Part shown: piece after piece, positions 23,478 to 50,920 of the stretch
Numbering within the stretch: position 1 is the first letter of the stretch
Layout of the letters: every line of letters begins with the position of its first letter
NCBI RefSeq assembly: GCF_000717915.1
Contig: NZ_JOCX01000001.1
Span: forward strand, 62,001-126,000
Length of the DNA: 64,000 nt
Reading direction: 5' to 3'
Source: Streptomyces sp. NRRL S-244
GTDB lineage: Bacteria; Actinomycetota; Actinomycetes; Streptomycetales; Streptomycetaceae
The notes under the pieces: generated by a model
What the model saw: the letters and a program-made list of their open reading frames with translations, nothing else
What the model was told of the DNA's origin: nothing
Databases searched by the model: none
Position numbers and translations under genes: made by a program

Positions 23478-23486
23478 ATTTTCCAC

Positions 23487-25833: not shown

Positions 25834-25898
25834 TTTCGTTTTGGCTTGGCGTACTGCGTGTCATCCGCCGCGTACGGCGCGTGCCGGTTCGGGCCACT

Positions 25899-25930
25899 GG
25901 GGGGCCACCGGGGGGACACCGGGGGTGGGG
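25899..25930 (+). promoter_or_regulatory. G-quadruplex-capable tract upstream of the scaffold peptide gene
   Basis: Four runs of at least four G (25899-25904, 25910-25915, 25921-25925, 25927-25930) with short loops lie on the coding strand 50 bp upstream of the 22-codon gene. It is followed at once by a minimal ORF, MLFSSR (25931-25951), whose last codon is the rare AGG. A regulatory role is only suggested. Confidence 0.4.
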
Positions 25931-25979
25931 ATGCTGTTCAGCAGTAGGTGACCACTGACGCCGAGCGGAGGTGAATCAG

Positions 25980-26048
25980 ATGAAGGTTTACGTCAAGCCG
26001 GAGGCCAAGAAGGTCGACCAGGGCACCATCGTCGCCGCTGTCCGCTAG
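25980..26048 (+). CDS. 22-residue leader-like peptide ending in Val-Arg (candidate scaffold peptide)
   Basis: A 22-codon ORF with an excellent ribosome site (GGAGG, 8-base spacer, ATG), standing alone before fzmA in the same direction. The product begins MKVYVKPEA, is Lys-rich, has a single Gly (residue 15) and ends TIVAAVR. Tyr4-x-x-Pro7 recalls the YxxP motif by which lasso-peptide leaders bind their RRE domain, but no core follows. The last two residues, Val21-Arg22, are exactly the dipeptide attached to the hydrazide in fosfazinomycin A. I infer a ribosomal scaffold whose C-terminal Arg carboxylate is modified by the fzm enzymes. It could instead be a translational leader, but no attenuation logic (repeated codons) is seen. 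Confidence 0.75.
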   Translation: MKVYVKPEAKKVDQGTIVAAVR

Positions 26049-26057
26049 CAGCGATCC

Positions 26058-26091
26058 CATGCCACGCCTCCCGTTCGGGGGGCGTGGCATG
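26058..26091 (+). terminator. Hairpin between the peptide gene and fzmA
   Basis: A 15-bp stem (CATGCCACGCCTCCC against GGGGGGCGTGGCATG, one G-T pair) with loop GTTC begins 10 bases after the peptide stop. There is no T-run. It probably acts as a partial terminator or RNA stabiliser that makes the peptide mRNA more abundant than the enzyme mRNA, an arrangement common after RiPP precursor genes. Confidence 0.75.
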
Positions 26092-26130
26092 TCCGCTCCA
26101 GTCACCAGTCACAGGGGAATCGGAAGGCTT

Positions 26131-28320
26131 ATGTGCGGAATTGCTGGATTCGCCCATACGGACGGAAGCGCTCTTGCCGGGTCCGCCGACGCGATTCTCC
26201 GGGACATGGCCCATGCGCTGCGGCCGCGCGGGCCGGACGACATGCAGTTCCATCACACCGGGCCCGCGTGCATGTCGTTCACGCGGCTCGCGCTGATCGA
26301 CCCCGAGGGCGGGCGGCAGCCGTTCATCAGCGAGGACGGGAACGTCATCCTCGCGGCGAACGGGGAGATCTACAACCACCGGGAGCTGCGGAAGGGGTTC
26401 GAGGGGCGGGTTCGCTTTCGGAGTGAGAGCGACTGCGAGGTGCTTCTCCATCTTTATCTGGAGAGGGGGATCGGGTTTCTCGATGATGTGCGGGGGATGT
26501 TCGGGATCGCCGTCATCGACCTGCGCGAGCAGCGGCTGCTGCTCGCACGCGACCGGCTCGGCATCAAGCCGCTGTTCATCCACCGCAACCGCGACACCGT
26601 GCTCTTCGGCTCCGAGGTCAAGGCGCTCTTCGCGCACCCCGAATGCCCGCGCGAGCTCGACTGGACGCGCGCCCTCGCCGACCAGGGGCTCAGCTCCGCG
26701 CCGGTGATGAGCGACGACGAGCCCGTCAGTTGGTTCAAGGGGATCGATCACGTTCCGGTCGGGGCCATCGTCGACATCAGCCTGCGCGGCGGGGCCACCC
26801 GCGTGCACCGGTACTGGGAGCTGCCCACGCCGGCCGAGGCCGGCGGGCTCCCCGAGAGCTTCTTCGTACGGAGCATGGGCGACCTGCTCGCCTCCTCCGT
26901 CCGCGAGTGCCTGATCGCCGACGCCGAGATCGGCGTCTTCCTCAGCGGCGGCCTGGACTCCGCGGCCATCACCTCCCTGGCCGCGCACACCGGACTGCAC
27001 ACCTTCTCCGCGCTGACCGGCGCCACCGTCGTCAACAAGGACGCCCAGTACGCCCGCGAGACCGCCGACCTCCTCGGACTCCCCAACCACCAGGTCGCCT
27101 TCGGCGCCGACCGGATCCCCTCGCCCGACGAGTGGCGCCGCCTGCTCTGGCTGATGGAGACGCCGCTGTGCGGCCCCGAGCAGTTCTACAAGAGCGAGAT
27201 GTACCGCTTCGCCCGCGCCGAACGCCCCGAGCTCAAGGCGATCCTGCTCGGCTCCGGCGCCGACGAGTTCAGCGGCGGCTACAGCGTCGCCCTCTCCGGC
27301 GGCGGCGACTGGAAGGACTTCGAGGGCAACCTGCGGACGATGGCCCGCCGCAAGGCGCTCGGCTCACAGTCCGCCCTCTCCGTCTGGTGGGAGGGCACCG
27401 ACCTGCCGCTGCTCAGCGACGACGCCGTCGGCGCGTACGCCCCCGGCGCGGTGGACGACCCGTACGGCTCCTACCTGGCCTGGAAGTTCCGGGACATGCA
27501 GCAGTACAACTTCTGGGTCGAGGACCGCACCGCCTCCGGCAACGGCGTGGAGGCGCGCGTCCCCTTCCTCGACCACCGCATCATCGAGCTGCTCGCGACC
27601 GTGCCGCGCGCCTACCGCAAGCGGCTGTTCTGGGACAAGCAGGTCATCCGCGAGGCCGTACGGGACATCCTGCCCGCCGAGGTGATCGGCCGGCCCAAGC
27701 TCGCCTTCTACGAGGGCGAAGGCGTGCGCCACACCCACCGCACCTTCACCCGCATGCTCGCGCAGAACGGCGACGAGCTCGTCGAGCAGGCCCTCTCCTC
27801 GCCGCGCGCCGCCCAGTACCTCGACGGCGCCAACATCCACCGCGCCCTGCGCCGGCTGGAGCGGGACCAGGGCTCCGGCCACGTCGAACTGCTGCTGCGC
27901 GTGGTCAACCTGGGCATCCTCGACCTGATGGCCGTGGACGTCCCCGGCAGCCGGGCCCCGAACGGGCCGGCCCCGTACGCACTGCGCGTCACGGACTTCG
28001 AGGGCCCGGAGGTCCGGGAGCTGTTCCCGCAGGCACGGATCGAGGAGACCTCGGTGTTCCGCCTCGCCGAAGGCGTCCTCGTGCTCGACGACGTACAGGG
28101 CGCCAACACCTCGTACGTCGTGGTCGACGGCGGCATCCGCTTCGTCATCGACCACCTCACCCACGCGGACTGGCTGCGCCTGCTGCGTGGATTCGACGGA
28201 CGCCGGCCGCTGTCGGAGGCGCTCGCCGCCACCGGCTGTGCATTCGACGCGATGCGGCCGCTGCTGGACGGATCGCTCGAAGCCGGCCTGCTGGAGTCCG
28301 TCGACGCCCCTGAAAAGTAA
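26131..28320 (+). CDS. fzmA: FzmA: asparagine synthetase-like amidotransferase with RRE-like C-terminus
   Basis: A 729-residue glutamine-dependent asparagine synthetase homologue. Cys2 (MCGIAGF) is the Ntn glutaminase nucleophile and SGGLDS (about 272) is the ATP-pyrophosphatase loop. In fosfazinomycin biosynthesis glutamylhydrazine is made by the hydrazine cassette. An AsnB-like enzyme is the logical catalyst to release hydrazine and couple it to an adenylated carboxylate (Arg). The protein is longer than AsnB: residues about 615-729 (LLRGFDGRRPLSEALAATG, PLLDGSLEAGLLE) look like a PqqD/RRE winged helix, as used to bind leader peptides. ATG 26131 is required for Cys2. Confidence 0.88.
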   Translation: MCGIAGFAHTDGSALAGSADAILRDMAHALRPRGPDDMQFHHTGPACMSFTRLALIDPEGGRQPFISEDGNVILAANGEIYNHRELRKGFEGRVRFRSESDCEVLLHLYLERGIGFLDDVRGMFGIAVIDLREQRLLLARDRLGIKPLFIHRNRDTVLFGSEVKALFAHPECPRELDWTRALADQGLSSAPVMSDDEPVSWFKGIDHVPVGAIVDISLRGGATRVHRYWELPTPAEAGGLPESFFVRSMGDLLASSVRECLIADAEIGVFLSGGLDSAAITSLAAHTGLHTFSALTGATVVNKDAQYARETADLLGLPNHQVAFGADRIPSPDEWRRLLWLMETPLCGPEQFYKSEMYRFARAERPELKAILLGSGADEFSGGYSVALSGGGDWKDFEGNLRTMARRKALGSQSALSVWWEGTDLPLLSDDAVGAYAPGAVDDPYGSYLAWKFRDMQQYNFWVEDRTASGNGVEARVPFLDHRIIELLATVPRAYRKRLFWDKQVIREAVRDILPAEVIGRPKLAFYEGEGVRHTHRTFTRMLAQNGDELVEQALSSPRAAQYLDGANIHRALRRLERDQGSGHVELLLRVVNLGILDLMAVDVPGSRAPNGPAPYALRVTDFEGPEVRELFPQARIEETSVFRLAEGVLVLDDVQGANTSYVVVDGGIRFVIDHLTHADWLRLLRGFDGRRPLSEALAATGCAFDAMRPLLDGSLEAGLLESVDAPEK

Positions 28321-28339: not shown

Positions 28340-29041
28340 ATGACAGCCCATCTCTACTGGGACGAGATCTGGCGCACCGACAGCGGGCGCACAGGCGACT
28401 GGTCGCGGCCGCACCCGTGGGTCGTGGACGAGGCCGCACGACTGCGGAAGCTCGGCGCGCAGGACGTACTGGACCTCGGCTGCGGCGTGGGCCGGCACGC
28501 CCTCTGGTTCGCCGAGGCCGGGTTCACCAGCTCCGGCACCGACGCCAGCGAGGCGGCCGTGCGCGCCGCCCGCGAGGAGGGCGAGAAGCGCGGGGTACGG
28601 GTCGCCCTCGACATCGGCGACTTCGGCGAACTCCCCTACCCGGACGCCAGCTTCGACTACGTCCTCGCCTTCAACGTGGTCTACCACAACGACGAGGCGG
28701 GCCTGGGCCGCGTACTCGACGAGGTCCGGCGCGTCCTGCGCCCGGGCGGCGCGTACCAGTCCACGATGCTCTCCAAGCGCAACGGCGAGTACGGGCGCGG
28801 CATCGAGGTGAGCCCCAACACCTTCCGCCAGCCCGGGGCCACCGACGACAAGGTGCACCCGCACCTGTACGTGGACGCCGCCGACCTGCTGCGCCTGCAC
28901 CCCGGGTTCCGCCTGCTCAGTGCCACCGACGCCGAGCACTCCGCGCCCGGCTCCTTCCACTGGCACTGCGTGTTCGAGTCGGCGGGGGAGGACGTGGCGG
29001 GCACCCGCCACGGCCGTTTCGCGCAGAGGGCCGGGGAATAG
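28340..29041 (+). CDS. fzmB: FzmB: SAM O-methyltransferase
   Basis: A 233-residue class I methyltransferase with motif I VLDLGCGVGRHALWFAEAG, then DASEAAV, a helix, and VLRPGGAYQSTML. In the published fosfazinomycin pathway FzmB methylates phosphonoacetate to its methyl ester. It is the only simple O-methyltransferase in the phosphonate operon. Its TAG stop shares one base with the GTG of fzmC. Confidence 0.87.
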   Translation: MTAHLYWDEIWRTDSGRTGDWSRPHPWVVDEAARLRKLGAQDVLDLGCGVGRHALWFAEAGFTSSGTDASEAAVRAAREEGEKRGVRVALDIGDFGELPYPDASFDYVLAFNVVYHNDEAGLGRVLDEVRRVLRPGGAYQSTMLSKRNGEYGRGIEVSPNTFRQPGATDDKVHPHLYVDAADLLRLHPGFRLLSATDAEHSAPGSFHWHCVFESAGEDVAGTRHGRFAQRAGE

Positions 29042-29895
29042 TGTCGAAGGCGACGCGACTGCGCGAACTGCTGGAACGCAGGGCACTGGCCCGGATCGTC
29101 GGATCCCGGGACGCGCTGACCGCCCTGCTCGTCGAGGAAGCCGGGTTCGACGGCCTGTGGGCGTCGAGCTTCGAGATCTCCGCCTCCCGGGCCCTGCCCG
29201 ACCTGGGCCTGCTGACCATGTCCGAGCTGCTCGAAGCCTGCTCGCACGTGAACCAGGCGACCGGGCTGCCGCTGCTCGCGGACTGCGACACCGGCTTCGG
29301 CGGCAACATCAACGTCGTCCGTACGGTCCGCCAGTTCGAGGCCGCGGACATCGGCGGCATCTGCATGGAGGACAAGGTGTTCCCCAAGCGGAACAGCTTC
29401 CTCGGCGGCGGCCAGAACCTGGAGGACGCGGGCGAGTTCGCCGGCCGGATCCAGGCCGCCGTACGGGCCCGGACCACCGCCGACTTCACCGTCATCGCCC
29501 GCGTCGAGGCGCTCATCGCCGGGGCCGGGCTCGCCGAGGCGCTGCGCCGCGCCCACCTGTACGCGGACGCCGGCGCCGACGCCATACTGATGCACTCCAA
29601 GAAGTCCACGCCGATCGAGATCCTGGAGTTCCTCCAGGCCTGGCAGGCCCGCACGCCCGTGGTCGTCGTACCGACCACCTATCCGCACTGGGACCTCGCC
29701 GAGGCCGAGGCGGCGGGCGTCTCGATGGTGATCTACGCGAACCACGCGCTGCGCGCCTCGGTCTCCGCCATGCGCGACGTCCTCGGCGAGATCCGGCTCC
29801 AGGGCGGGACCGGCGGGGTCGAGGACACCATCGCCCCGATGAAGGAGCTGTTCGGCCTCACCCAGGTGAACCGGTGGGAGGAGTGGAGCGCATGA
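29041..29895 (+). CDS. fzmC: FzmC: phosphoenolpyruvate mutase
   Basis: A 284-residue PEP mutase, which makes the C-P bond (PEP to phosphonopyruvate) and starts nearly all phosphonate pathways. The diagnostic EDKxxxxxNS motif is present as EDKVFPKRNS (about residues 110-119), separating it from isocitrate lyases. DCDTGFGG provides Mg2+ ligands. The GTG start overlaps the fzmB stop. The letter C follows cluster order. Confidence 0.95.
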   Translation: MSKATRLRELLERRALARIVGSRDALTALLVEEAGFDGLWASSFEISASRALPDLGLLTMSELLEACSHVNQATGLPLLADCDTGFGGNINVVRTVRQFEAADIGGICMEDKVFPKRNSFLGGGQNLEDAGEFAGRIQAAVRARTTADFTVIARVEALIAGAGLAEALRRAHLYADAGADAILMHSKKSTPIEILEFLQAWQARTPVVVVPTTYPHWDLAEAEAAGVSMVIYANHALRASVSAMRDVLGEIRLQGGTGGVEDTIAPMKELFGLTQVNRWEEWSA

Positions 29896-31004
29896 TCAGC
29901 GCCGAGTTCTTCTGCGCGGAGCTGGACCGCCGCGGGTACGGGTTCTTCAGCGGGGTGCCGTGTTCCTTCCTCAAGGGCCCGTTCGCGCTGCTGGAGCAGC
30001 GCGACAGCTACGTCCCGGCGCCCAACGAGGGCATCGCGCTGTCCATGGCCGCCGGGGCCGAGCTGGGCGGGACCCGGGCCGTGGTGCTGGCCCAGAACTC
30101 GGGGCTCGGCAACCTCCTCGACCCGCTGACCTCGCTCACCATGGCGTACGAGATCCCGCTGCTGCTGTTCGTCAGCCTGCGCGGCTGGCCGCACGCCGAG
30201 GACGACGAGCCGCACCACGCGGCGATGGGCGCCGGGACCATCGGCGTACTGGAGGCCCTCGGGGTCGCCCACGGCATCCTGGACCCCGCCGAGGAGAGCC
30301 TGGGCGCTCTCCTCGACCGCGCGGAGTCGGCCCGGCGCGAGAGGCGGTCCTTCGTCGTCCTCGTACCGGCGAAGACCGTGGACGCCCGCCCGGTGCCGGC
30401 GCCCGCCCCGGACGCGCGGATGGACCGCCGGGCCGCCGTGTCCGTCATCGCCGGGCACCTGGGCGACGCGCTCGTCTACAGCACCACCGGCATGATCAGC
30501 CGGGAGCTGTTCGGGGTCGTCGACGACCCGCGCAACTTCTACATGCAGGGCTCCATGGGGCACGCCATCGGCCTGGGCCTGGGCACCGCGCTGAACCGCC
30601 CCGACCAGGACGTCGTGGTCATCGACGGCGACGGCGCGGCGGTCATGCACCTCGGCGGGCTCGCGCTCGTCGGCGAGCGGCGGCCCCCGAACCTGACCCA
30701 CTTCGTGCTCGACAACGGCGCGTACGACTCCACCGGCGGCCAGCGCACCCGCGCCACGGCCATGCGCTGGGACGAGTTGGCGCTGGCGGCCGGATACCGC
30801 ACGGGCAGGGTCTGCCGTACGGCCGAGGAAGTCACCGCCCATCTGGGGGAGATCAAGGGGCGGCCCGGGCCGCATCTGGTCGCCCTGCACATCGGCAGGG
30901 GTGGGGCCACGCCCCCGCGGGTAACTTCGGCGCACACCAACGCCGAGGTCAGGGCCCGCTTCCAGGCCGCGGCGACCGAAGCCCGGAAGGACGACCTGCC
31001 GTGA
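29892..31004 (+). CDS. fzmD: FzmD: phosphonopyruvate decarboxylase
   Basis: A 370-residue thiamine-diphosphate enzyme converting phosphonopyruvate to phosphonoacetaldehyde, the irreversible step that pulls the mutase reaction. The N-terminal Pyr domain contains the catalytic Glu in APNEGIAL. The C-terminal TPP motif GDGAAVMHLGGLALVGERRP (about 246) runs to a later DN. ATGA overlap with fzmC and GTGA overlap with fzmE. Confidence 0.94.
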   Translation: MISAEFFCAELDRRGYGFFSGVPCSFLKGPFALLEQRDSYVPAPNEGIALSMAAGAELGGTRAVVLAQNSGLGNLLDPLTSLTMAYEIPLLLFVSLRGWPHAEDDEPHHAAMGAGTIGVLEALGVAHGILDPAEESLGALLDRAESARRERRSFVVLVPAKTVDARPVPAPAPDARMDRRAAVSVIAGHLGDALVYSTTGMISRELFGVVDDPRNFYMQGSMGHAIGLGLGTALNRPDQDVVVIDGDGAAVMHLGGLALVGERRPPNLTHFVLDNGAYDSTGGQRTRATAMRWDELALAAGYRTGRVCRTAEEVTAHLGEIKGRPGPHLVALHIGRGGATPPRVTSAHTNAEVRARFQAAATEARKDDLP

Positions 31005-31765
31005 CCACCGTCATCGCCCATGTCAGCGATCTGCACCTGGACCTCTCGGAGCGCGCCACGCAGCGCGCGCTGACCGTCATGAACCACCTGCGCGACATGC
31101 CGGGGCCCATCGACGCCGTCCTCGTCTCCGGTGACATCGCCGACCACGCGACGCCGGACGAGTACGCGCAGGCCCGCAAGCTGTTCGACCTGCCCTACCC
31201 GGTGCTGGTACTGCCCGGAAACCACGACCGGCGGGGTCCGTTCCGTACGGGCCTGCTCGACGCGGCGCCGGATGACGGGGAGCTGAACCAGGTCGTCCGC
31301 ACGCCCGGAGCCGTCTTCCTGCTGTGCGATTCGACCGTCCCAGGCAGCGACGAGGGCCTGCTCAGCGACCTGACCCTGAGGTGGCTGGACGAGACGCTGA
31401 CCGCCGCGGGCGGGGAGCTGCCCGTCTTCGTCTGCTTCCACCACCCGCCGGTCGACCTGCACACCCCGTACGTGGACCGGGTCCGGCAGTTCGGCGAGGA
31501 GCGCCTCGCCGCGGTGCTGGAACGGCACCCGCAGGTCGTGGCCCTGCTGTGCGGACACGCGCACGTGGCCGCGGCCACGACGTTCGCGGGGCGCCCGCTG
31601 CTCGTGGCGCCCGGGGTCGCCTCGACCGTCCCGCTGCCCTTCGAGGGCCTGCCCGCCGTGGACTACGAGCTGGCCCCGGCGCTGGCCTTCCACGTACTCG
31701 ACGACCGGCGGCGGCTGGTCACGCACTACAGGGCGCTCGGCCGACCGCACCTCCCCGAGCACTGA
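31001..31765 (+). CDS. fzmE: FzmE: CpdA-like metallophosphoesterase
   Basis: A 254-residue calcineurin-like phosphoesterase with DLHLD, SGDIAD, GNHDRR, CFHHPP and GHAHVA, the class III cyclic-nucleotide-phosphodiesterase pattern. Its role in the cluster is undefined. It could remove a phosphate or nucleotidyl group from an intermediate, perhaps opposing the cluster's kinase-like or nucleotidyltransferase proteins. GTG 31001 overlaps the fzmD stop. Confidence 0.84.
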   Translation: MTTVIAHVSDLHLDLSERATQRALTVMNHLRDMPGPIDAVLVSGDIADHATPDEYAQARKLFDLPYPVLVLPGNHDRRGPFRTGLLDAAPDDGELNQVVRTPGAVFLLCDSTVPGSDEGLLSDLTLRWLDETLTAAGGELPVFVCFHHPPVDLHTPYVDRVRQFGEERLAAVLERHPQVVALLCGHAHVAAATTFAGRPLLVAPGVASTVPLPFEGLPAVDYELAPALAFHVLDDRRRLVTHYRALGRPHLPEH

Positions 31766-31831: not shown

Positions 31832-33157
31832 ATGAGAAGAGTCCTGATCGCCAACCGCGGTGCGATCGCGGCCCGGGCCGTGGACACCTTCCGCAGGCTG
31901 GGCTGGTCGCCGATCGCCGTCGTCGCCTCATCGGACCCCCAGCGCCTGCACGCGCTCGCCGCGGACGGGTGCGAGTACCTGGAAGGCACCGGGCTCGCGG
32001 AGACGTACGACCACGTGGGCCGGATCGTCGAGGCCGCCCGGCGCTGCGGCGCCGACGCGGTCTACCCGGGCTACGGGGCGCTGGCGGAGGATCCGGAGCT
32101 GCCCGAGCGGCTGGCGGCGGCGGGCATCGCCTTCGTCGGGCCGACGGCGGAGGTGCTCGCGGCGGCCCGCGACAAGGACCACGCGGTCGCCACCGCCGAC
32201 CGGCTGGGCCTGCCCGTGCTGCCGCACGCGACCGGGCACGAGCCCATCGCCAAGCTGGTGGCGGACATCGGGCTGCCGGTCATCCTCAAGCCGGTCACCG
32301 GGTGCGGGGGCCTCGGCGTGCGCATCGTGCACACCGAGGCGGAGGCGGAGCGGGCGCTCGCACAGATCGGTACGGACGAGGGTGACGCCTGGTACGCCGA
32401 GCGGTACGTGGAGCGCGGAGCGGTGGTCGGGGTCACGGTCGCCGTGGACGGGGCCGGAACCGTGCACCCGCTCGGTGAGCGGGAGAGCCTCCTGGTCGAC
32501 GGCAGCATGAAGCTGCTGGAGGCCTCGCCCGTCCAGGGCGTGGCCCCGGAGCTGGTGGAGCGGATGCGGACGGACACGGCCCGGCTCGTCACCGGTATGG
32601 GGTTACGGGGCGTGGCGACGGTCGAGTTCATCGTCGGCTCGGGTGTCGGTGGCGGCGTCGGTGCCGGCGTCGGTGCCGGTGCCCGGAGCCACTACTTCCT
32701 GGAGGTCAACGGGCGGCTGCCGCTGGCCTACCGGATGTGCGAGGCGCAGACCGGCCTGGACGTGGTGGCCCTCCAGATGGAGCTGGCGCAGGGCGCGCTG
32801 CCCGCCCCCGGCCGCATACGCGTCGACCGGGACACGCACTGCCTGGAGGCGCGCCTGTTCATCGAGCCGGCCCCGGACGGGGCGCCCGGCCGGATCACCG
32901 CCCTGGAGCTGGCCCCCGAGCCGGGGGTGACGTACAACTGCGCGCTGGACGTACGCGGGCCGGTCGTCCTCGACAACATCGTCACGCAGGTCCTGGCCCT
33001 GGGCGAGCGCCGCGGCGCGGCGGCCGGGGCGGTACTGCGGGCCGTCGAGGGCAGCGGGGTTTCGGGGGTCGGAACCTGCGCGGAAGAGATAGCCGTGTGG
33101 CTGCGGGGTTCGGGGCTGGTCCCGGAACGCCTCGGCAGCCAGGCCTTGGGAGTCTGA
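31832..33157 (+). CDS. fzmF: FzmF: biotin-carboxylase-like ATP-grasp ligase
   Basis: A 441-residue ATP-grasp protein of the biotin carboxylase/carbamoyl phosphate synthetase type. It has RRVLIANRGAIAARAV, the pre-ATP-grasp domain YPGYGALAEDPELPE, LKPVTGCGGLGV (Gly-rich loop) and FLEVNGRLPLAYR. No biotin carrier protein is nearby, so it is probably a carboxylate-amine ligase. It is the best candidate to join the methylated hydrazide to the phosphonate carboxyl group. Residue 258 is encoded by TTA (32603-32605). A Gly/Val simple-sequence insertion lies before FLEVNG. Confidence 0.8.
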   Translation: MRRVLIANRGAIAARAVDTFRRLGWSPIAVVASSDPQRLHALAADGCEYLEGTGLAETYDHVGRIVEAARRCGADAVYPGYGALAEDPELPERLAAAGIAFVGPTAEVLAAARDKDHAVATADRLGLPVLPHATGHEPIAKLVADIGLPVILKPVTGCGGLGVRIVHTEAEAERALAQIGTDEGDAWYAERYVERGAVVGVTVAVDGAGTVHPLGERESLLVDGSMKLLEASPVQGVAPELVERMRTDTARLVTGMGLRGVATVEFIVGSGVGGGVGAGVGAGARSHYFLEVNGRLPLAYRMCEAQTGLDVVALQMELAQGALPAPGRIRVDRDTHCLEARLFIEPAPDGAPGRITALELAPEPGVTYNCALDVRGPVVLDNIVTQVLALGERRGAAAGAVLRAVEGSGVSGVGTCAEEIAVWLRGSGLVPERLGSQALGV

Positions 33158-33163: not shown

Positions 33164-34111
33164 ATGAACAGCAACGATCCGTTCTCGACCGTCCGCCACC
33201 CCGTCGACCGCGCGCTCGCGACGGCCGTCGCCGAGAGCGGGGAGGAGGACGTACGCGCGCCCTGGTACCGGGAGTTCGGGCAGACCATCGGCGGTCACGT
33301 ACGGCGCCACCTCGACGCCCGGCCCGGCTACTTCGTGCTGAGCGGCCTGGACCACCTGGGCGAGGAGCAGGCGCGCCGGTTCACGGTCGCGGTCTCCCGG
33401 CTGGCCGGGGACCTGCTGCCGCAGGACGGCGCGGGGGCCCTGCTGCGGGACGTACGGGACCGGGGGGTGCGGCTCGGCGAGGGCGCGACCGGCCGCTACT
33501 CGGACAGCCGGCAGGGCGGCAGCCTGCACACCGACGCGGCGCACCGGCCGGGGCGGCTTCCGGACATTTTCGCGCTGTTCTGCGTCCGGCAGGCCTCCAG
33601 CGGCGGGGCCCTGGTCACGGTGCACGTGAGCGATCTGCTGGAGATCCTCCGGGGCCACCCCGAGGAGCTCGCGGCGCTGCGGCTGCCGGTCCACTTCGAC
33701 ACCCGGGACGACACGCCGGGGGTGCCGCTCACGACCGAGCGGCCCGTACTGGAGTCCAAGGACGGCCGGGAGCGGATGTACTACCTGCGGGACTACATCG
33801 AGATCGGGCACAGCCATCCGCACGTACCGCCGTTGACGCCCGAGCAGGTCAAGGCGCTGGACCTGCTGGACTCGCTGCTGGAGCGGCGCGATCTGCAGAC
33901 GCACGGGCGGCTGGCACCGGGCGAGATGATCTTCATCGACAACCGGTCGATCGTGCACGGCCGGACGCCGTTCGACGAGGACCGGCCGGTTGACGGCGGG
34001 CGGCTGATGCTCCGCACCTGGATCGGGCTCACCGCGCAGCGCGCGGCCGCGGCCGACACGGACACGGGCACGGGCACGGACACCGACGCCGGGGCTGGGG
34101 CCGTCCGGTGA
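33164..34111 (+). CDS. fzmG: FzmG: 2-oxoglutarate/Fe(II) dioxygenase (TauD type)
   Basis: A 315-residue TauD/TfdA-like oxygenase with iron ligands His122 and Asp124 (LHTDAAH) and distal His265 (IVHGRTPF), and a 2OG-binding Arg in RLMLRTW. Published work assigns FzmG two steps, oxidation of phosphonoacetaldehyde to phosphonoacetate and hydroxylation of methyl phosphonoacetate. That explains why no aldehyde dehydrogenase gene is present here. The C-terminal tail is a Thr/Asp/Gly repeat (TDTGTGTDTDAGAGA). Confidence 0.9.
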   Translation: MNSNDPFSTVRHPVDRALATAVAESGEEDVRAPWYREFGQTIGGHVRRHLDARPGYFVLSGLDHLGEEQARRFTVAVSRLAGDLLPQDGAGALLRDVRDRGVRLGEGATGRYSDSRQGGSLHTDAAHRPGRLPDIFALFCVRQASSGGALVTVHVSDLLEILRGHPEELAALRLPVHFDTRDDTPGVPLTTERPVLESKDGRERMYYLRDYIEIGHSHPHVPPLTPEQVKALDLLDSLLERRDLQTHGRLAPGEMIFIDNRSIVHGRTPFDEDRPVDGGRLMLRTWIGLTAQRAAAADTDTGTGTDTDAGAGAVR

Positions 34112-35157
34112 CACGGGTCGTCACCGAGCTCGAACGGCTCGGCCTCGCCGAGTTCCTGGCCGACTTCCCCGGGGACTCGGTGGACCGCCGCCAGTGGGCC
34201 GCCGGCGCCCGCGGCCTCGACGGCGAACTGCGCACCCTCGCCGGGTTCCTGCTGCTCGGGGAGGCTGCGGCGGCCGACCGGCTGCCACCCGCCCTCGCCG
34301 GGGCGCTGCCGGCCCTGGTCACGAGCGGGGTCGCGCACCAGCGCGGGGCCGAGGTCCAGCTGGTCGACGTCAGCCTGTTCCGCTCGGGCGGGGTGTGGCT
34401 GTTCGCGGAGCCGCCGAGCCCCTTCCCCGTACGCCACTACTTCGGCCGGGACTCGATCGCGCTGGCCCGGCGCACCGGCTTCCGGGCGGGGGCGCGGGTC
34501 CTCGACCTGTGCTCCGGGCCGGGGTTCCAGGGGCTGCTCGCCGCCCGCGGCGGCGCCCGGGCCACGCTGGTGGAGCTGCTGCCCGAGACCGCCGAAGTGG
34601 CCCGGATCAACGCGGAGATCAACGGGGTGGCCGACCGGATCGAGGTCCTCGTCGGCGACCTGTACGAGCCGCTGCCGGCCGGGGTGGAACCGTACGACCA
34701 CGTCATCGCGAACATCCCCTTCCTGCCGACCCTCGCCGCCCCGGGCGAGGAGGCCGCCCACGAGGGCGGCGAGGACGGGTTCGGCGTGGGCCGGCGGGTC
34801 CTCGCCGGGCTCCCCCGGCACCTGGGCGCGGGCGGTACGGCCCATCTGACCGCGCTCCTCCTCCAGGCGGACCAGCAGCTCGTCACCGACGGCGAACTGC
34901 GGGCCTGGGCCGCGGCGAACGGATACGGCCTGACGGTCACGCTGACCGAGCGGATGGCGGTGGACGCCGACTCCGACCTCGTCCAGACGACGGTGTCGGA
35001 CCACCTGGAGACCGATCCGCAGGCCGATCCCGAGGAGCTCACCGCCGCCGCCGTCGCCGTGTACGCGAGCCGCGGGGCGACGGCCGCCCGACTGGCCTAT
35101 CTGCGGATCGACGCCGGGATGGCCGACTTTCGTGTCCTCGACCGCGCGGGCGGCTGA
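34108..35157 (+). CDS. fzmH: FzmH: SAM N-methyltransferase
   Basis: A 349-residue class I methyltransferase of the HemK/RlmG-like type. An N-terminal helical domain is followed by VLDLCSGPGFQGLLAA (motif I) and HVIANIPFLP, an NxPF motif typical of N-methyltransferases acting on planar nitrogen. FzmH has been reported to methylate arginine hydrazide. GTG 34108 overlaps the fzmG stop. Confidence 0.87.
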   Translation: MTRVVTELERLGLAEFLADFPGDSVDRRQWAAGARGLDGELRTLAGFLLLGEAAAADRLPPALAGALPALVTSGVAHQRGAEVQLVDVSLFRSGGVWLFAEPPSPFPVRHYFGRDSIALARRTGFRAGARVLDLCSGPGFQGLLAARGGARATLVELLPETAEVARINAEINGVADRIEVLVGDLYEPLPAGVEPYDHVIANIPFLPTLAAPGEEAAHEGGEDGFGVGRRVLAGLPRHLGAGGTAHLTALLLQADQQLVTDGELRAWAAANGYGLTVTLTERMAVDADSDLVQTTVSDHLETDPQADPEELTAAAVAVYASRGATAARLAYLRIDAGMADFRVLDRAGG

Positions 35158-35209: not shown

Positions 35210-36433
35210 GTGACGACGGCAGGGACGGACGGCGCGGGCAACGGCAACACGACCCACGGCACGGGCAGCATCGGCTCGAAGGGCCCCGAGCTCATCGAGC
35301 TCGCCTCCATCAAGGACGCGGAAGTCGACCGGTGGAACGCCCTCGCGGGCGACGCCGCCCTCTACTCGACCCACCGCTGGCTGCTCTACGGCGAGGAGCT
35401 GGCCGACGCCGGCTCCCGCCACCTGGTCGCCGCCTGCGACGGCTCGTACACCGTCGGGCTCCCCACCCACCGCTTCACCGGGAAGGTCCCGCACTTCTAC
35501 GATCCCGCCGTGCTGTTCCCCGGCGCCGCCGAGCCGGCCACGCCCGAGCGCCCGCTGCTCCTCGGCGGCACCCGCCTCGGCTACACCAGCGAGGTGATCG
35601 TCGCTCCGGGCACCGCCGAGCCGCTCGCCGCGGCGGGCGTGCGGACCGTACTGGACCGGCTGCGCGCGATGGGCGCCGAGGACGACGGCCTCGCGGCCCT
35701 GCTCTACCTCACCGACGAGTCGGTGGAGCGGCTGCTGCCGCACCTGGGCCCCCGGGACCAGGTGGTGATGATGGACGCGACCGCCGTCCTGCCCGTCGAC
35801 CCCGACGGCCTGGAGGGCTACCGCAGACGCTTCACCTCCCACCAGTTCACCTCCATCCGCCGCGAGATGCGCCGCTACACCGACGCCGGCTGCCGCACCG
35901 AGGTCAAGCTCCTCTCCGAGTGCCACCAGCTGCTCGGCCCGCTCTCCGCGCAGGTGCTCATCCGGTACGGGCACCCCGTCACCGACGAGAGCGAGTCGGA
36001 GCGCTTCGCCCAGCAGGCCACGCTGTTCGACGACAACTGCCGGATCCTGGGCGCCTACCAGGGCGACCGGATGGTGGGCTTCACCCAGTACTTCTTCTGG
36101 GGGAACACCATGTACGCCCGCTCGCACGGGCTGGACGACTCCATCGCCCGCGAGGCCAAGCTCTACTTCAACCTCACCTACTACGAGGCCGTGAAGTACG
36201 CGGCGGCCAACGGCTACCACTGCGTGGACCTGAGCTGCGACGCCTTCCAGGCCAAGGTGTCCCGGGCCGCCCGGCTCCAGCCCCTGTGGGGCGTCCTCCT
36301 CGACGCCCCGTGGACCGGGCCGGTCCTGGAGCGCGTACGCGCCGAGGAGCGGGCCCGGCGCCGGGAGTTCGCCTCCCACGACCCGGGGATCGAGTCGCGG
36401 GTGGCGCAGCTCGTGGACGCGCGCGGCCGGTAG
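35210..36433 (+). CDS. fzmI: FzmI: FemX/GNAT-fold transferase
   Basis: A 407-residue protein with a double GNAT arrangement. The C-terminal half (ILGAYQGDRMVGFTQYFFWG, EAKLYFNLTYYEAVKYAA) resembles the GNAT_6 / FemABX acyltransferases, some of which use aminoacyl-tRNA. In the fosfazinomycin pathway this position fits addition of valine to the Arg part, converting B to A. GTG 35210 has GGAAGG at 9 bases. It is the last gene of the rightward operon. Confidence 0.8.
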   Translation: MTTAGTDGAGNGNTTHGTGSIGSKGPELIELASIKDAEVDRWNALAGDAALYSTHRWLLYGEELADAGSRHLVAACDGSYTVGLPTHRFTGKVPHFYDPAVLFPGAAEPATPERPLLLGGTRLGYTSEVIVAPGTAEPLAAAGVRTVLDRLRAMGAEDDGLAALLYLTDESVERLLPHLGPRDQVVMMDATAVLPVDPDGLEGYRRRFTSHQFTSIRREMRRYTDAGCRTEVKLLSECHQLLGPLSAQVLIRYGHPVTDESESERFAQQATLFDDNCRILGAYQGDRMVGFTQYFFWGNTMYARSHGLDDSIAREAKLYFNLTYYEAVKYAAANGYHCVDLSCDAFQAKVSRAARLQPLWGVLLDAPWTGPVLERVRAEERARRREFASHDPGIESRVAQLVDARGR

Positions 36434-36485: not shown

Positions 36486-37721
36486 TCACCCGGCCGGTCT
36501 GGGCTCCCGCTCCTTCTCCCACTCCCGCTCCCGCTGGTCGCGCCCGCGCTCCGCGATGGCCGCCACCGGCGGCACCGCCGCCCCGGCCGCGACCATGAGG
36601 GTGACGAGCACGGCCCAGCCCAGCGGGCCCGCGCTCAGGCACAGCGCGTTCAGCACGGTCGGCGCCACCGCGCCGCCGATGCCGACGCCGACGGAGAACA
36701 CGCCCTGGTACTCGCCCTGCGCGTGCTCGGGGGCCAGCCCGAACGACAGCGCGTACTCCCCCGCCGTGAACAGCATCTCCCCGAAGGTCAGCGCCGCCGT
36801 GCCGATCAGGATCAGCCCCATCGCCCCGTACATCGGGACGTGCGCGGCGGCGTAGACGAGGGCTATGGCCACGGCGATGACGGGCCCGCTGCGCCGCATG
36901 GCCAGCGCCCCGTCGCGCGGGGTCTCGACCCCCTTGGCGACCTTGGTCTGGAGCAGGACCACCAGCGCGCAGCTCAGCGCGAAGACCAGCGACACCGTCC
37001 AGCGCGGCGCCTTCGTGTACTCGGCGATCCACACCGGCATCAGCACCGTCATGAAGACGTCGAACATGACGAGGGTGCCCGCGAGCACGCTGACGGCGAG
37101 GAACGGGCGGTCGGCGAGCGCGTAGTGGCGGCCGCTCCCCGGCTCCTTGGGGATCGGCGGCAGGTGCGGCAGCCGGGCCACCAGCACCGCGGCGACGAGG
37201 TACGAGACGACGTCGGCGCAGATCGCGATCACGTACGCGGTCCGGGTGTCGGCCTGTAGCGCCAGCCCGCCGAGCAGCGAGCCGGAGACCATCGCGAGGT
37301 TCTGGAGGGAGTAGATCCGCGCCCGGTACGCGACGCGGTCCGCACCGCCGACGTACGCGATCAGCGCCCCGCTGATCGCGGGGAAGGCGCCGCGCCCCAG
37401 GGCGATCAGGGTGATCACCACGAGGAACCCGGCCATGCCCTCCACCAGCAGCAGGGCGCCCGCGGCGGCCGCCTGGGCGACCAGTCCGGCGATGCCCACC
37501 TCGCGCGGCCCGAACCGGTCGGCGAGCCGGCCGACGAGCGGCCCGGCGACCAGGCCCGCGAGCCCGGCCGCCGTCAGCCCCATGACCACGTTGCCCGTGG
37601 ACAGTCCCACGGACCGGACGAAGAACAGGACTTGGAGAGGGGCCCAGCTGCCCGCCCCGAGGTAGCGGACGAACAGTGCGGCCGCCAGGCCGCGTCTCAG
37701 GCTCCGTCCGTCGCTCGGCAT
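36486..37721 (-). CDS. fzmJ: FzmJ: MFS transporter
   Basis: A 411-residue major facilitator with 12 predicted transmembrane helices. The motif A-like loop GPLVGRLADRFGPREV lies between helices 2 and 3 and a long central loop follows GRHYALADRP. Most likely it exports the phosphonate product and gives self-protection. Start ATG 37721 shares one base with the fzmK stop (TGATG). Confidence 0.87.
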   Translation of the reverse strand: MPSDGRSLRRGLAAALFVRYLGAGSWAPLQVLFFVRSVGLSTGNVVMGLTAAGLAGLVAGPLVGRLADRFGPREVGIAGLVAQAAAAGALLLVEGMAGFLVVITLIALGRGAFPAISGALIAYVGGADRVAYRARIYSLQNLAMVSGSLLGGLALQADTRTAYVIAICADVVSYLVAAVLVARLPHLPPIPKEPGSGRHYALADRPFLAVSVLAGTLVMFDVFMTVLMPVWIAEYTKAPRWTVSLVFALSCALVVLLQTKVAKGVETPRDGALAMRRSGPVIAVAIALVYAAAHVPMYGAMGLILIGTAALTFGEMLFTAGEYALSFGLAPEHAQGEYQGVFSVGVGIGGAVAPTVLNALCLSAGPLGWAVLVTLMVAAGAAVPPVAAIAERGRDQREREWEKEREPRPAG

Positions 37722-38416
37722 CAGTGGCCCGCCGGGGCTTCGACGGCGGCGGGGCGGGGGGCGGACTCCGCGGGGCGGGGGTTGACCTCGACCCCCAGCT
37801 TGGGCGCCAGCAGTTTGCGCAGCTGCTGCGCCGCCGCCTCGGCGGTGTTCGCCCGTACGACGTCCCAGCCGCGCCGGGCCGCCCAGTCGAGCATGACGTC
37901 CCGGACGGCGGCCTGGTGGGACAGGAAGCTCTCCGGCCGGCACTCCGGGTCGCGGCCGCACTCGTACGGGGTGATGTCCCCCTTCTTGCGGCGCAGAGCC
38001 TCCTCGGGGGTGACGTCGAAGAAGACCACGCTGTCCACCGGGGCCATGGCGTGGACGATGGCGTCCACGAGCTCCTGGGGGCAGCCCGCCAGCAGTTCGG
38101 TGGCGGCGTGCTTGACCCAGTAGCCGTCGAGGACGACGAGGTCCGCCTCGGCGGCGCGGGCGCGCTCCGCGGCCAGGGTGTTGAGCCAGCCGAGGAAGAG
38201 CATCCGGGCCGGGTTCGGCATCTCGGCGATGCAGACCCGCAGTTCGTCGAGGGTGGTGCCGCGCAGGAAGCGGGCCTGCGGTACCTCCGATTCCGCGAAC
38301 ACCTGCCACTTGCCGACGACGCGGAACGACAGGCCCTGGCCCTCGGCCCAGCTCTGGAGCCGCTTGACCTGCGTGCTCTTGCCCGCGCCGTCGGGTCCGT
38401 CCATCGCAACGATCAC
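37721..38416 (-). CDS. fzmK: FzmK: thymidylate-kinase-like P-loop protein
   Basis: A 231-residue P-loop kinase of the thymidylate kinase family: GPDGAGKSTQ (Walker A, residues 7-16), a VVLDGYW switch (DR[YHW]-like DGYW) and ALRRKKGDIT in the lid. It has a Pro/Ala-rich C-terminal tail. Housekeeping Tmk is a separate gene elsewhere, so this copy probably phosphorylates a pathway intermediate or gives self-resistance by phosphorylating the phosphonate. GTG 38416. Confidence 0.82.
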   Translation of the reverse strand: MIVAMDGPDGAGKSTQVKRLQSWAEGQGLSFRVVGKWQVFAESEVPQARFLRGTTLDELRVCIAEMPNPARMLFLGWLNTLAAERARAAEADLVVLDGYWVKHAATELLAGCPQELVDAIVHAMAPVDSVVFFDVTPEEALRRKKGDITPYECGRDPECRPESFLSHQAAVRDVMLDWAARRGWDVVRANTAEAAAQQLRKLLAPKLGVEVNPRPAESAPRPAAVEAPAGH

Positions 38417-38465: not shown

Positions 38466-39932
38466 TCATGCGGTGCTGCCGCGGTGGTACGCGAGAGCCC
38501 GCTCGATCAGCGCCTCGGCGGCGCCGGTGTACTCGGCCGGGATGAGCAGCCGCTCCAGCTGCGCGGCGGTGAACTCCTCGGCCAGTTCGGGCGCTTCCGC
38601 GAGGAGCCGCCCGACCAGGGATTCCGCGGAGTCCGCCGGCGCCCCGCCCCCGCCTCCGCCCGCGGCCACCCGGCCGACCAGGCGCTTCGCGCCCGCCTTG
38701 CCGAGTACGGGGGCCAGTGCGGCGGCCAGCCGCTCGGTGACCACGGCCCCGCCGGTGAGCCGCAGGTTCGCCGCCATCCGAGCGGGCCGCACCTCCAGCC
38801 CCTCGGCCAGCTCCGCCGCGGTGCAGGCGGCCCCGCCCACCAGCCGCAGCGCCTCGCGCAGCGGCTGCCATTCGCCGTGCCAGGCCCCGGCGGGCCGCTC
38901 GTCCTCGGCGGCGGCCGCGCAGTGCGACAGCGTGAGGACGAGCGAGGGCACCTGGAGGGCGGCGGAGCGGATCATCGCGGCGAGCACCGGGTTGCGCTTC
39001 TGCGGCATGGCGGAGGAGACGCCGCGGCCGGCCCCGGCGGGTTCGGCCACCTCGGCGAGCTCGGTGCGGGCCAGGGTCTGCACATCGGTGGCGAACTTAC
39101 CGAGCGCCGCGGCGGCATGCCCGAGGACGGCGCCCGTGTCGCCGATCGGCGTGCGCAGGGTGTGCCAGGGCAGGACGGGCTCCGCGAGTCCCGTCTCGGC
39201 GGCGAAGAGGGCGATCAGCTCCCCGGCGTACGCACCCGCGTCGGCGCCCGGATCCGTGCCCGCGCCCGTGCCCGCCCGGTCCTGTGCCGGCCGCGCGTAC
39301 TCGAGATAGCCCGCGAGGGTGCCCGCGGCCCCGCCGAGCTGGACCGGCAGCCCCCCGTCGAGCAGGGCCCCGACCCGGCGCCGTACGTCGACCACCGCGA
39401 CGAGCCAGCCCGCCGCCTTGAGGCCGAACGTGGTGGGGACGGCGTGCTGGCCGAGGGTACGGGCCACCGCCGGCGTCCCCCGGTGCGCGTCGGCCAGGTG
39501 GGCCAGCGCCCCGGCCGTCCGGTCGAGCTCGGTCCGTACGAGGCGCAGCGCACGGGCCGTGACCAGCATCGCGCCGGTGTCGAGGATGTCCTGGCTGGTG
39601 GAGCCGCGGTGCACGTACTCCGCCGCCGCGGGGTCCTCGGCCGCGACCAGCGCCGTCAGCTCCTCGACCAGGGCGACCACCGGGTTGCCGGCGCCGCGCG
39701 CCCGTACCGCCAGCGCGGGCAGGTCGATCGCCCCGGCCCGGGCGCACGCCGTGATCGTCTCGGCGGCCTTCGCGGGTACGGTGCCCAGCCGGGACTGGGC
39801 CCGGGCCAGGGCGGCCTCGGCGTCGAGCATCGCCTGGGCCCAGGCGGTGTCGGTGAGGGCCGCCTCGGTGGCGGTACCGGCCCGGACCGGCGAGAGGAAG
39901 CCGGTGTCCGGAGATGTGGTGGGGCGGTCCAT
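38466..39932 (-). CDS. fzmL: FzmL: nitrosuccinate lyase (aspartase/fumarase superfamily)
   Basis: A 488-residue lyase of the aspartase/fumarase superfamily, nearest to 3-carboxymuconate cycloisomerase and CreD. It has HRGSTSQDILDTG, TLGQHAVPTTFG and the signature GVSSAMPQKRNP. CreD/FzmL release nitrous acid from nitrosuccinate, supplying the oxidised nitrogen for N-N bond formation. A Gly/Thr/Ala-rich insertion (AGTGAGTDPGADAGAYAG) interrupts the middle. Start ATG 39932 overlaps the fzmM stop by one base. Confidence 0.88.
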   Translation of the reverse strand: MDRPTTSPDTGFLSPVRAGTATEAALTDTAWAQAMLDAEAALARAQSRLGTVPAKAAETITACARAGAIDLPALAVRARGAGNPVVALVEELTALVAAEDPAAAEYVHRGSTSQDILDTGAMLVTARALRLVRTELDRTAGALAHLADAHRGTPAVARTLGQHAVPTTFGLKAAGWLVAVVDVRRRVGALLDGGLPVQLGGAAGTLAGYLEYARPAQDRAGTGAGTDPGADAGAYAGELIALFAAETGLAEPVLPWHTLRTPIGDTGAVLGHAAAALGKFATDVQTLARTELAEVAEPAGAGRGVSSAMPQKRNPVLAAMIRSAALQVPSLVLTLSHCAAAAEDERPAGAWHGEWQPLREALRLVGGAACTAAELAEGLEVRPARMAANLRLTGGAVVTERLAAALAPVLGKAGAKRLVGRVAAGGGGGGAPADSAESLVGRLLAEAPELAEEFTAAQLERLLIPAEYTGAAEALIERALAYHRGSTA

Positions 39933-46658: not shown

Positions 46659-46733
46659 TGTCGTCACCTACGGAACGTCATTCGACGGCGGTTCGGGATC
46701 GGGGCGGGACGGCCCGCCCCGCGGGACCCGGGT

Positions 46734-47138
46734 TCAGCCGAGCGCATCGAGGGTCCATGCGGACTCGTGGCGGCTGAACCCGAGGTGCGGGTAGTACGCG
46801 ACGGCGGCCGGGGCCGAGAGGAGCACGAGCTTGGCCTGCGGCGCCGCCTCCCGGGTGGCGCGGATGAGATCCCGGCCCACGCCGCGGCGCTGGAACTCGG
46901 CGTCCACGGCGATGTCGCTCAGGTACGTGACGTACGAGCCGTCGGTGATCGAGCGCGCGATGCCGATGAGCCGCCCGTCGAGGCGGGCCGTGATCACGAG
47001 GTTGGCGCCGGCCAGCATCCGGGTGAACCGCTCGACGTCCTCGACGGGACGGCGCTCGCCGAGGGTGGACGCGCGGTACAGGGCGGTGACTTCGGCGACG
47101 TCGAGGCTGGCACCGACGACGGGCTCACACTTCCACAT
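46734..47138 (-). CDS. fzmQ: FzmQ: GNAT N-acetyltransferase
   Basis: A 134-residue GNAT enzyme with YLSDIAVDAEFQRRGVGRDL (acetyl-CoA motif A) and AYYPHLGF (motif B). In the cassette FzmQ acetylates hydrazinosuccinate before the lyase step. It overlaps the end of fzmR by 14 bp. Confidence 0.9.
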   Translation of the reverse strand: MWKCEPVVGASLDVAEVTALYRASTLGERRPVEDVERFTRMLAGANLVITARLDGRLIGIARSITDGSYVTYLSDIAVDAEFQRRGVGRDLIRATREAAPQAKLVLLSAPAAVAYYPHLGFSRHESAWTLDALG

Positions 47139-48432: not shown

Positions 48433-48534
48433 GGTCGGTTCTCCTCGGATCTCCCCGTCGGACGGCACGGCGGGGGACGGGACGCGGGGGACGGGACGTG
48501 GGGGCGGAGCTCGCGGGGGCGGAGCTCGCGGGGC

Positions 48535-50532: not shown

Positions 50533-50596
50533 GTGATGGCCCCCGTAATGTCTCACCCACGGGAAAATACGCAGGGGTGGTGACCCCTGAGGCGAT

Positions 50597-50920
50597 TCAG
50601 CCCCGGGAATCACCCTGGGTGATGTTCACGACATCGTGCCGAGCGAGTTCCGTGAAGAGCTCGACGATGTCCTGCACCACGGATTCCTGATCGATGTCGT
50701 ATTCCTGGGCGATCAGCGCGGCGATATCGCTCACGGTGCGCTTCCCGTCGATCTGCCGCCAGATGTGGGCGGCGGACGCGGTCAGCTCGAAGAAGTGCTC
50801 GTACCCGCCGACCACCGTCGTACCGCGGTGGTTGCGGATCTTCACGTTCAGCGGCAGCGAGGCCACCGAACCGGGGCCCACCTGCACGTCTTTGCCGAGC
50901 GGCGGTTCGTCGAGCGCCAT
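50597..50920 (-). CDS. PqqD/RRE-like protein
   Basis: A 107-residue protein. A beta strand pair (VKIRNHRGTTVVGGYEHFFE) precedes a winged helix with AAHIWRQIDGKRTVSDIAAL and VVQDIVELFTELARHDVV, the PqqD-family pattern. PqqD and RRE domains bind leader peptides of ribosomally made products and deliver them to enzymes. Its presence in a phosphonate cluster is unexpected and makes sense if the 22-residue peptide is a substrate. The start shares one base with the stop of the nucleotidyltransferase gene. Confidence 0.85.
   Translation of the reverse strand: MALDEPPLGKDVQVGPGSVASLPLNVKIRNHRGTTVVGGYEHFFELTASAAHIWRQIDGKRTVSDIAALIAQEYDIDQESVVQDIVELFTELARHDVVNITQGDSRG

Follow-up and report, generated by a model that had tools for sequence, protein, structure and literature searches.

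A 22-residue peptide encoded upstream of fzmA as a probable ribosomal source of the fosfazinomycin Val-Arg unit

Introduction

By which route does hydrazine reach arginine in the biosynthesis of the phosphonate antibiotic fosfazinomycin? Fosfazinomycin A carries a Val-Arg dipeptide and fosfazinomycin B carries Arg. In published biochemistry, the asparagine-synthetase-like enzyme FzmA released glutamate, and hence hydrazine, from glutamylhydrazine, and when FzmA was supplied with 5 mM free arginine both arginine adenylation and argininylhydrazine went unobserved (PMC6133997). As late as 2025, the subsequent steps were termed unconfirmed (PMC12154649).

A first-pass annotation of the fosfazinomycin locus of Streptomyces sp. 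NRRL S-244 had pointed to an unlisted ORF of 22 codons directly before fzmA and proposed that the Val-Arg at the end of its product becomes the dipeptide of the antibiotic. Here we examine this ORF in the window (the whole stretch of 64,000 nucleotides that was analysed) and at related loci from other genomes. The proposed ribosomal origin is partly supported overall, and at the genomic level, where it is judged from sequence comparison, it appears well supported. Searches of an open-access collection, which does not include the papers on fosfazinomycin from 2015 and 2016, revealed no recognisable account of this peptide or of a ribosomal origin, and none of its papers contains 'fosfazinomycin' together with 'ribosomally synthesized'.

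Results

The peptide gene and its immediate surroundings

The 22-codon ORF (25980..26048, plus strand) encodes the putative precursor (scaffold) peptide MKVYVKPEAKKVDQGTIVAAVR, followed by a stop codon. Its ribosome-binding site, GGAGG (25967..25971, plus strand), is read from the sequence 8 nt 5' of the ATG, and the fzmA start at 26131 (MCGIAGF...) lies 82 nt past the stop codon, so that the arrangement described in the first-pass annotation, a short ORF with a ribosome site just ahead of fzmA, holds. The peptide consists of a leader with the motif Y4-x-K6-P7-x-A9-K10-x-V12 and ends with Val21-Arg22. An NCBIfam scan of the 22-mer gave no match. When the 730-nt upstream region was shuffled by mononucleotides, an M..Y.KP ORF of at most 40 codons arose in 8 of 5000 shuffles, and the ORF at 25980-26048 is confirmed as real, beyond chance.

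The interval between the peptide gene and fzmA contains a hairpin (26058..26091, plus strand) with a perfect stem of 11 bp and a 12-nt spacing of the arms. It folds with a z-score of -4.7, a T run is absent 3' of the stem, and a partial terminator or a stabiliser is a possible role. Its position after the 22-mer ORF suits a precursor that is expressed above its operon, or attenuation. Of the 29 loci in the folding test, which left out L017 and L085, two short stretches without the peptide, 27 have a z-score below -2 for the 75 nt 3' of the ORF. Within 25600-26300, a sigma-70 scan revealed no promoter-like site, and a terminator scan revealed a single terminator-like site, which lies upstream (25802-25833).

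At 10690 and 25744, the 3' end of tRNA-Pro is present as an exact repeat of 43 bp. The repeats bracket about 15 kb (10690-25786) with GntR-type regulator-like and Nudix-like genes, recognised by inspection of the sequence, and this region is probably an integrated element whose end lies about 190 bp 5' of the peptide gene.

Genes of the cluster

The protein encoded by fzmA (26131..28320, plus strand) has 729 residues and is asparagine-synthetase-like, with Cys2, SGGLDS and GSGADE motifs intact. Its Pfam matches are GATase and Asn_synthase, and both the glutaminase and the synthetase motifs of AsnB are whole. On the same strand follow a methyltransferase (28340..29041), PEP mutase (29041..29895), phosphonopyruvate decarboxylase (29892..31004), a calcineurin-like phosphoesterase (31001..31765), an ATP-grasp ligase (31832..33157), a TauD-type 2-oxoglutarate oxygenase (33164..34111), a further methyltransferase (34108..35157) and a FemAB/GNAT-like protein (35210..36433) that is a candidate aminoacyl transferase. 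Letters were assigned by position: we take the first methyltransferase to be FzmB, the ligase FzmF, the oxygenase FzmG, the second methyltransferase FzmH and the FemAB/GNAT-like protein FzmI. The enzyme published as FzmH is an argininylhydrazine N-methyltransferase (PMC6133997).

The minus strand encodes an MFS transporter (36486..37721), a P-loop kinase-like protein (37721..38416) and a series of enzymes whose roles are taken from published work (PMC6133997): the lyase FzmL (38466..39932; nitrite release), the flavoprotein FzmM (39932..41884; N-hydroxylase), the glutamine-synthetase homologue FzmN (41881..43332), the amidase FzmO (43421..44941), which makes glutamylhydrazine, the N-acetyltransferase FzmQ (46734..47138) and the adenylosuccinate-lyase homologue FzmR (47125..48468). 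FzmN was assigned by gene order, has no Pfam match and may start further upstream than 43332. Between FzmO and FzmQ lies an FzmP/KinJ-type hydrazine-forming haem enzyme (44931..46667, minus strand), also free of Pfam matches and assigned by order and size (role from PMC12154649). A SARP-type regulator (48535..50613, minus strand) follows.

A comparison of fzm clusters in differing chromosomal contexts, from which G775 was left out, shows a conserved block that extends from the peptide gene to a nucleotidyltransferase gene (50920-51747), the last conserved gene of the cluster. Pfam gave no peptidase-type match, and hence no protease gene, among the cluster genes; an S9 peptidase is encoded at 54593-56395, outside the conserved block.

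Conservation of the peptide at FzmA loci

FzmA loci were taken from named contigs (6 loci), from 392 Streptomyces genomes (25 loci in 24 genomes, E <= 1e-100) and from 394 class-level genomes (3 positive genomes, two of them new). L010 and L008 apparently represent one S. eurythermus record and were counted once, and the set comprises 32 distinct FzmA loci. A 22-codon M..Y.KP ORF is present at 31 of them, with 22 residues every time. When the 700 nt upstream were scanned without any motif for short ORFs preceded by a ribosome site, a 22-codon ORF of this kind was recovered at 28 of 30 distinct loci; since no motif was used, the constancy of Y4, K6 and P7 at these loci is unselected. At the remaining three loci, these residues were search terms: the motif M..Y.KP added L019 and, farther upstream, L041 (around L017) and L087 (around L085).

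As a control, we used 39 places with other AsnB homologues (E <= 1e-20, 21 genomes), 27 of which were examined as loci, and a Y.KP short ORF was found at none of the 27. The looser motif [YFW]..P proved useless as a marker, being present in 18 of the 27 control loci; only Y.KP discriminates.

The peptide gene usually lies 79-154 nt 5' of the FzmA gene, and kilobases upstream of it in L041 and L087. Tandem copies occur in L041 (two) and L053 (three). An alignment of the 31 distinct peptides reveals that M1, Y4, K6 and P7 are invariant and that K10 and V12 are nearly invariant. The two residues near the peptide start that the first-pass annotation had singled out, Tyr4 and Pro7, are therefore both invariant, along with K6, and the short ORF that it suggested looking for in other fzm-like clusters is indeed kept in those examined.

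Selection on the peptide can be gauged from the seven fzm-type loci, in which pN/pS is 0.35, meaning that amino-acid-changing differences reach, per site, about one-third of the frequency of silent differences; the value of 0.95 over all 29 peptides is saturated and uninformative. Change is smallest in codons 2-12 and largest in codons 19-22 (pN 0.24 versus 0.64). The 22-mer thus combines two features of RiPP precursors, namely a short ORF conserved with a modifying enzyme and a conserved leader followed by a variable C-terminal block. The entropies within that block are 2.6 and 3.0 at positions 19-20 and 1.8 and 2.1 at positions 21-22. The predicted core positions 21-22 are less variable than 19-20, which counts against the core reading.

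G571 has the sole FzmA locus without a YxKP peptide, and the PqqD and nucleotidyltransferase genes described below are also absent from it. At this locus (L088), a 19-residue ORF, MTKVSDKQIDARTAAMARI, and a downstream hairpin seen by eye stand before the AurF and FzmA genes.

A PqqD-like protein and a nucleotidyltransferase accompany the peptide

Clustering of gene neighbourhoods at the FzmA loci turned up two partners, both of which lie beyond the SARP gene in the window. One is a PqqD-family RiPP recognition element (RRE) of 107 residues (50597..50920, minus strand; PF05402, E 2.6e-14). Among PDB entries, it matches PqqD 5sxy with E 6.3e-7, and lasso B1 proteins match much more weakly (E 0.018-0.025). 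A predicted leader-recognition-type gene, a further hallmark of RiPP loci, is therefore inside the cluster; its distance of 24.5 kb from the peptide gene counts against a role of the 22-mer as precursor. The other partner is a nucleotidyltransferase-fold protein of 275 residues with a GSx...SDLD motif (50920..51747, minus strand), whose homologues begin near residue 16. Ser45, Gly49, Ser55, Asp56 and Asp58 are invariant in an alignment of 66 sequences, and the best Foldseek match of its structural model (pLDDT 94) is to kanamycin/ANT(4') nucleotidyltransferases (E 1.0e-6).

The PqqD gene adjoins the nucleotidyltransferase gene at 31 of the 32 FzmA loci (the window and 30 others). The YxKP peptide is encoded at these same 31 loci, and all three genes are missing from the remaining one. 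Among the 392 Streptomyces genomes, 24 encode FzmA (E <= 1e-100), 25 encode the nucleotidyltransferase (E <= 1e-20) and 24 encode both (Fisher p ~2e-37, uncorrected for kinship). This co-occurrence of PqqD/RRE and nucleotidyltransferase, together with the fusion of FzmA to PqqD described below, is the strongest evidence, and it was absent from the first-pass annotation.

The odd genome is G372 (L134), which has the nucleotidyltransferase without FzmA, PqqD or a Y.KP peptide; its neighbours there include another gene of the AsnB-like kind (29% to a member of the FzmA family) and one for PEP mutase (50% to a PEP mutase from the present loci). Further nucleotidyltransferase copies are found in G014, G097, G176, G183 and G287, and the copy in G343 has an in-frame TGA. 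The extra copies in G183, G287 and G097 (L127, L128 and L129) are located elsewhere than FzmA, and contig 68 of G183 has a group of three; the stretches read around these copies contain no Y.KP peptide. Such extra copies count against a strict module.

The C-terminus of FzmA resembles PqqD

The C-terminal region of FzmA (residues 636-727; 28036..28311, plus strand) is PqqD/RRE-like according to hhalign. A profile of residues 620-729 matches the PqqD profile of these loci with a probability of 83% (E 9e-6), and 43 other families from these loci reach 1.4% at most in the same test. In the FzmA model, pLDDT is mostly 80-92 over this region. At E <= 1e-120, we found 373 relatives of FzmA, and the best 120 of these include one protein, P0179 (833 residues), with a C-terminal PqqD domain (E 4.6e-11) that is 47% identical to the PqqD of the window. 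Because of this fusion and the PqqD-like C-terminus of FzmA itself, we conclude that the FzmA family carries a recognition-type region. The solved structure nearest to FzmA by sequence is 7ylz, a hydroxyamidotransferase.

Val-Arg ends occur in hydrazine-type clusters

Eight loci are of the hydrazine type (the window, L003-L008 and G252), and the peptide ends in Val-Arg in all eight. Among the 23 remaining peptide-bearing loci, one (G319) shares this ending. The C-terminal dipeptide, whose invariance in fzm-like clusters the first-pass annotation had proposed to check, is thus identical throughout this group. The Fisher value for the association, 1e-6, overstates independence because FzmA proteins from the hydrazine-type loci fall into a single clade, and the association may represent one evolutionary event. 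FzmH is encoded in 7 of the 31 FzmA-bearing genomes, all seven with a Val-Arg peptide. FzmP is encoded in 9 of the 31, the copies in G252 and G388 lying away from the FzmA locus. The G319 peptide ends in ...VVR, and neither FzmH nor FzmP accompanies it, which counts against the link between Val-Arg and hydrazine chemistry.

The cluster in G252 (L130/L035/L089) keeps FzmA, FzmH, a FemAB-like protein, FzmN/O/Q/R-like genes and a peptide ending in ...AVVR, and has MetRS-like, Lys/Orn N-hydroxylase and saccharopine-dehydrogenase-type proteins instead; no PEP mutase is present in the stretches read. The gene set points to another hydrazine route, and the product is probably another Val-Arg hydrazide with a different hydrazine source. 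A fosfazinomycin-like cluster in S. eurythermus (L034/L139, G181) contains phosphonate and hydrazine genes and a peptide ending in ...NVR, and has no gene space for FzmH, FzmI, FzmL or FzmM. It represents a natural test of the origin of valine.

An AurF-type diiron oxygenase was found by the gene caller, which missed the FzmA region of L052, in 21 of the 22 non-hydrazine Streptomyces loci; it is also present in G405 and G571. The AurF-type call is based on PF11583 in the one member scanned. The AurF-type loci (L036-L057 and L087) are without FzmH and make up most of the FzmA-peptide-PqqD-nucleotidyltransferase loci examined. Additional genes in L040, L042, L044 and L051 belong to carbamoyltransferase, PLP-dependent, ornithine-cyclodeaminase-like, haem-oxygenase-like, 2OG-oxygenase and ATP-grasp families.

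Discussion

A proposed pathway on a ribosomal peptide

We consider it likely that the 22-mer is the RiPP precursor of fosfazinomycin, with a leader predicted to sit on PqqD and a C-terminal Arg22 whose carboxylate FzmA would provide with hydrazine. With slightly less confidence, we favour a joint reading in which fosfazinomycin is a RiPP-phosphonate hybrid with an encoded Val-Arg and a hydrazide made by FzmA, and represents one branch of a large actinobacterial YxKP class. That class would be defined by 22-residue precursors, an FzmA-type synthetase, PqqD and an aminoglycoside-nucleotidyltransferase-like protein, and would so far comprise two chemistries, hydrazine (with Val-Arg) and AurF-type diiron oxidation (with variable ends).

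In the proposed mechanism, the leader MKxYxKPxAKxV would bind PqqD and possibly also the C-terminal region of FzmA. FzmA would then adenylate the Arg22 carboxylate of the bound peptide and capture hydrazine, channelled from its own glutaminase-type site with glutamylhydrazine as the donor, to yield a peptidyl-Arg-hydrazide. FzmH would methylate this intermediate, the phosphonate would be joined through the hydrazide, and a protease would release Val-Arg for fosfazinomycin A or Arg for fosfazinomycin B. The nucleotidyltransferase probably acts on the same peptide or is brought to it by the RRE, and it may modify the peptide, as a nucleotidyltransferase is also predicted in a lasso cluster.

The null result with free arginine fits a peptide acceptor for FzmA. 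YxxP is a characterised recognition motif of RREs (PMC12710340), whose Tyr and Pro occupy positions -17 and -14, respectively, in lasso leaders (PMC10368454). This lasso ruler puts the boundary between leader and core after residue 20, and the predicted core would be exactly Val-Arg; the ruler is borrowed, and Pfam revealed no lasso-type protease among the cluster genes. The Thr that lasso leaders have at -2 (residue 19 here) is not conserved in these peptides. FzmH reportedly uses argininylhydrazine (PMC6133997), and from this substrate a free Arg-hydrazide may exist, which counts against our preferred reading. Because FzmI could add valine, only the arginine might be ribosomal, and Val21 could then be left without a role in the product.

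Alternative explanations

The dual possibility for valine leads to an alternative in which the peptide is a carrier, guide or activator of FzmA whose residues stay out of the product, arginine being free and valine arriving through FzmI from Val-tRNA. We give this a small chance. The FemAB/GNAT-like character of FzmI and the reported action of FzmH on argininylhydrazine (PMC6133997) agree with it, and the sequence pattern would be the same for a conserved leader with no known product, but Val-Arg is constant in all eight hydrazine-type clusters, whereas positions 19-22 vary elsewhere. Furthermore, adenylation or hydrazinylation of free arginine by FzmA was not observed in the published assay (PMC6133997). 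This last result, the want of either arginine adenylation or argininylhydrazine, also weighs on the proposal made in the same paper, for which TsnB9, an AsnB homologue, served as precedent, that FzmA couples hydrazine to free arginine, the short ORF being unrelated to the step. The nearest solved structure, 7ylz, as a hydroxyamidotransferase, is in line with that proposal; the RRE-like C-terminus of FzmA, its PqqD-fused relative and the co-occurring peptide are not, and we regard it as decidedly unlikely.

The peptide, PqqD and nucleotidyltransferase might also belong to a separate RiPP that merely shares its locus with fosfazinomycin. These parts stand at opposite margins of the cluster, and their core recurs in the AurF-type loci, of which only 1 of 22 shows a PEP mutase gene in the stretch read. 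Nevertheless, their partner enzyme FzmA acts on glutamylhydrazine, an intermediate of fosfazinomycin (PMC6133997), and every one of these parts is present in the S. eurythermus cluster though it is without FzmH and FzmI, which makes a chance cohabitation very improbable. Even less credence can be given to the ORF as a regulatory leader peptide, that is, an attenuator governing the hairpin and the expression of fzmA. Its conserved part is the N-terminal YxKP, with no run of one regulatory amino acid, and its C-terminal residues differ widely. Tandem copies (two in L041, three in L053), peptide genes kilobases off FzmA in L041 and L087 and the co-occurring RRE gene likewise disagree with such a function. 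The strong hairpin between the ORF and fzmA, which has counterparts 3' of the ORF at 27 of the 29 loci tested, favours an attenuator, but a hairpin behind a RiPP precursor gene can equally signal partial termination.

Comparison with known systems

A close parallel to the proposed RiPP pathway is the amidation or nitrilation of RiPP C-termini by asparagine-synthetase-like (AS-like) enzymes such as PesC (nitrilobacillins), TsrC and ScdTA, in which a ribosomally made peptide receives a nitrogen at its C-terminal carboxylate, as proposed here; some 300 further AS-like RiPP candidates are uncharacterised (PMC13060819). The words 'fosfazinomycin' and 'fzm' are absent from the main text of that paper. 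In contrast to these systems, the nucleophile here would be hydrazine from glutamylhydrazine, the precursor has just 22 residues, PqqD and the nucleotidyltransferase are discrete proteins, and the product would be a phosphonate-joined dipeptide hydrazide.

Lasso peptide biosynthesis (A, B1, B2, C) shares the YxxP leader, a PqqD-type B1 RRE and an AsnB-family enzyme, and a gene for a predicted nucleotidyltransferase, bsfN, is likewise present in one or more lasso clusters (PMC10368454). A lasso peptide was nonetheless rejected: Pfam gave no B2 transglutaminase-like protease domain among the cluster genes, FzmA scores 170 bits against the lasso cyclase model NF033535 (cut-off 525), and the 2-4 residues past the conserved part offer neither an Asp/Glu ring acceptor nor a ring-sized core. 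PqqA, the scaffold peptide of PQQ biosynthesis, is very short. The pairing of such a scaffold with a PqqD chaperone is shared with the present loci, but no radical SAM domain was found by Pfam among the cluster genes scanned, and the chemistry here is of the AsnB type.

PEARL pathways (3-thiaglutamate, ammosamide) assemble a small product at the C-terminal end of a ribosomal carrier peptide and afterwards release it by cleavage (PMC9016710 and PMC12424672), as we propose; they add residues from tRNA, whereas the C-terminal residues here would be encoded. Pfam detected no LanB-like/lantibiotic-dehydratase domain among the cluster genes, and a PEARL pathway was rejected. TsnB9 (trichostatin) and Afn14 (albofungin) are AsnB homologues that transfer hydroxylamine or hydrazine, hydrazine in the case of Afn14 (PMC6133997 and PMC11705231). 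Unlike FzmA in our proposal, they act on an advanced intermediate and an aromatic polyketide precursor, with no ribosomal peptide.

Implications

If the proposed pathway is correct, it answers how hydrazine reaches arginine, an open step of fosfazinomycin biosynthesis, and explains why FzmA showed no observed reaction with free arginine. A classic phosphonate antibiotic would be reclassified among the RiPPs, and the peptide C-terminal hydrazide would join ribosomal chemistry as a variant of AS-like RiPP chemistry. If the product residues are encoded, the pathway might be redirected through the last codons. Precursors this small may escape gene finders. The full module of peptide, FzmA, PqqD and nucleotidyltransferase is present at 31 loci, and 373 proteins are related to FzmA at E <= 1e-120.

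A PEP mutase gene was found in 1 of the 22 AurF-type loci, within the stretch read. This locus, L057 (G030), also encodes phosphonopyruvate decarboxylase and a peptide ending in ...TRVA, and from its gene content it is a candidate for a second RiPP-phosphonate hybrid.
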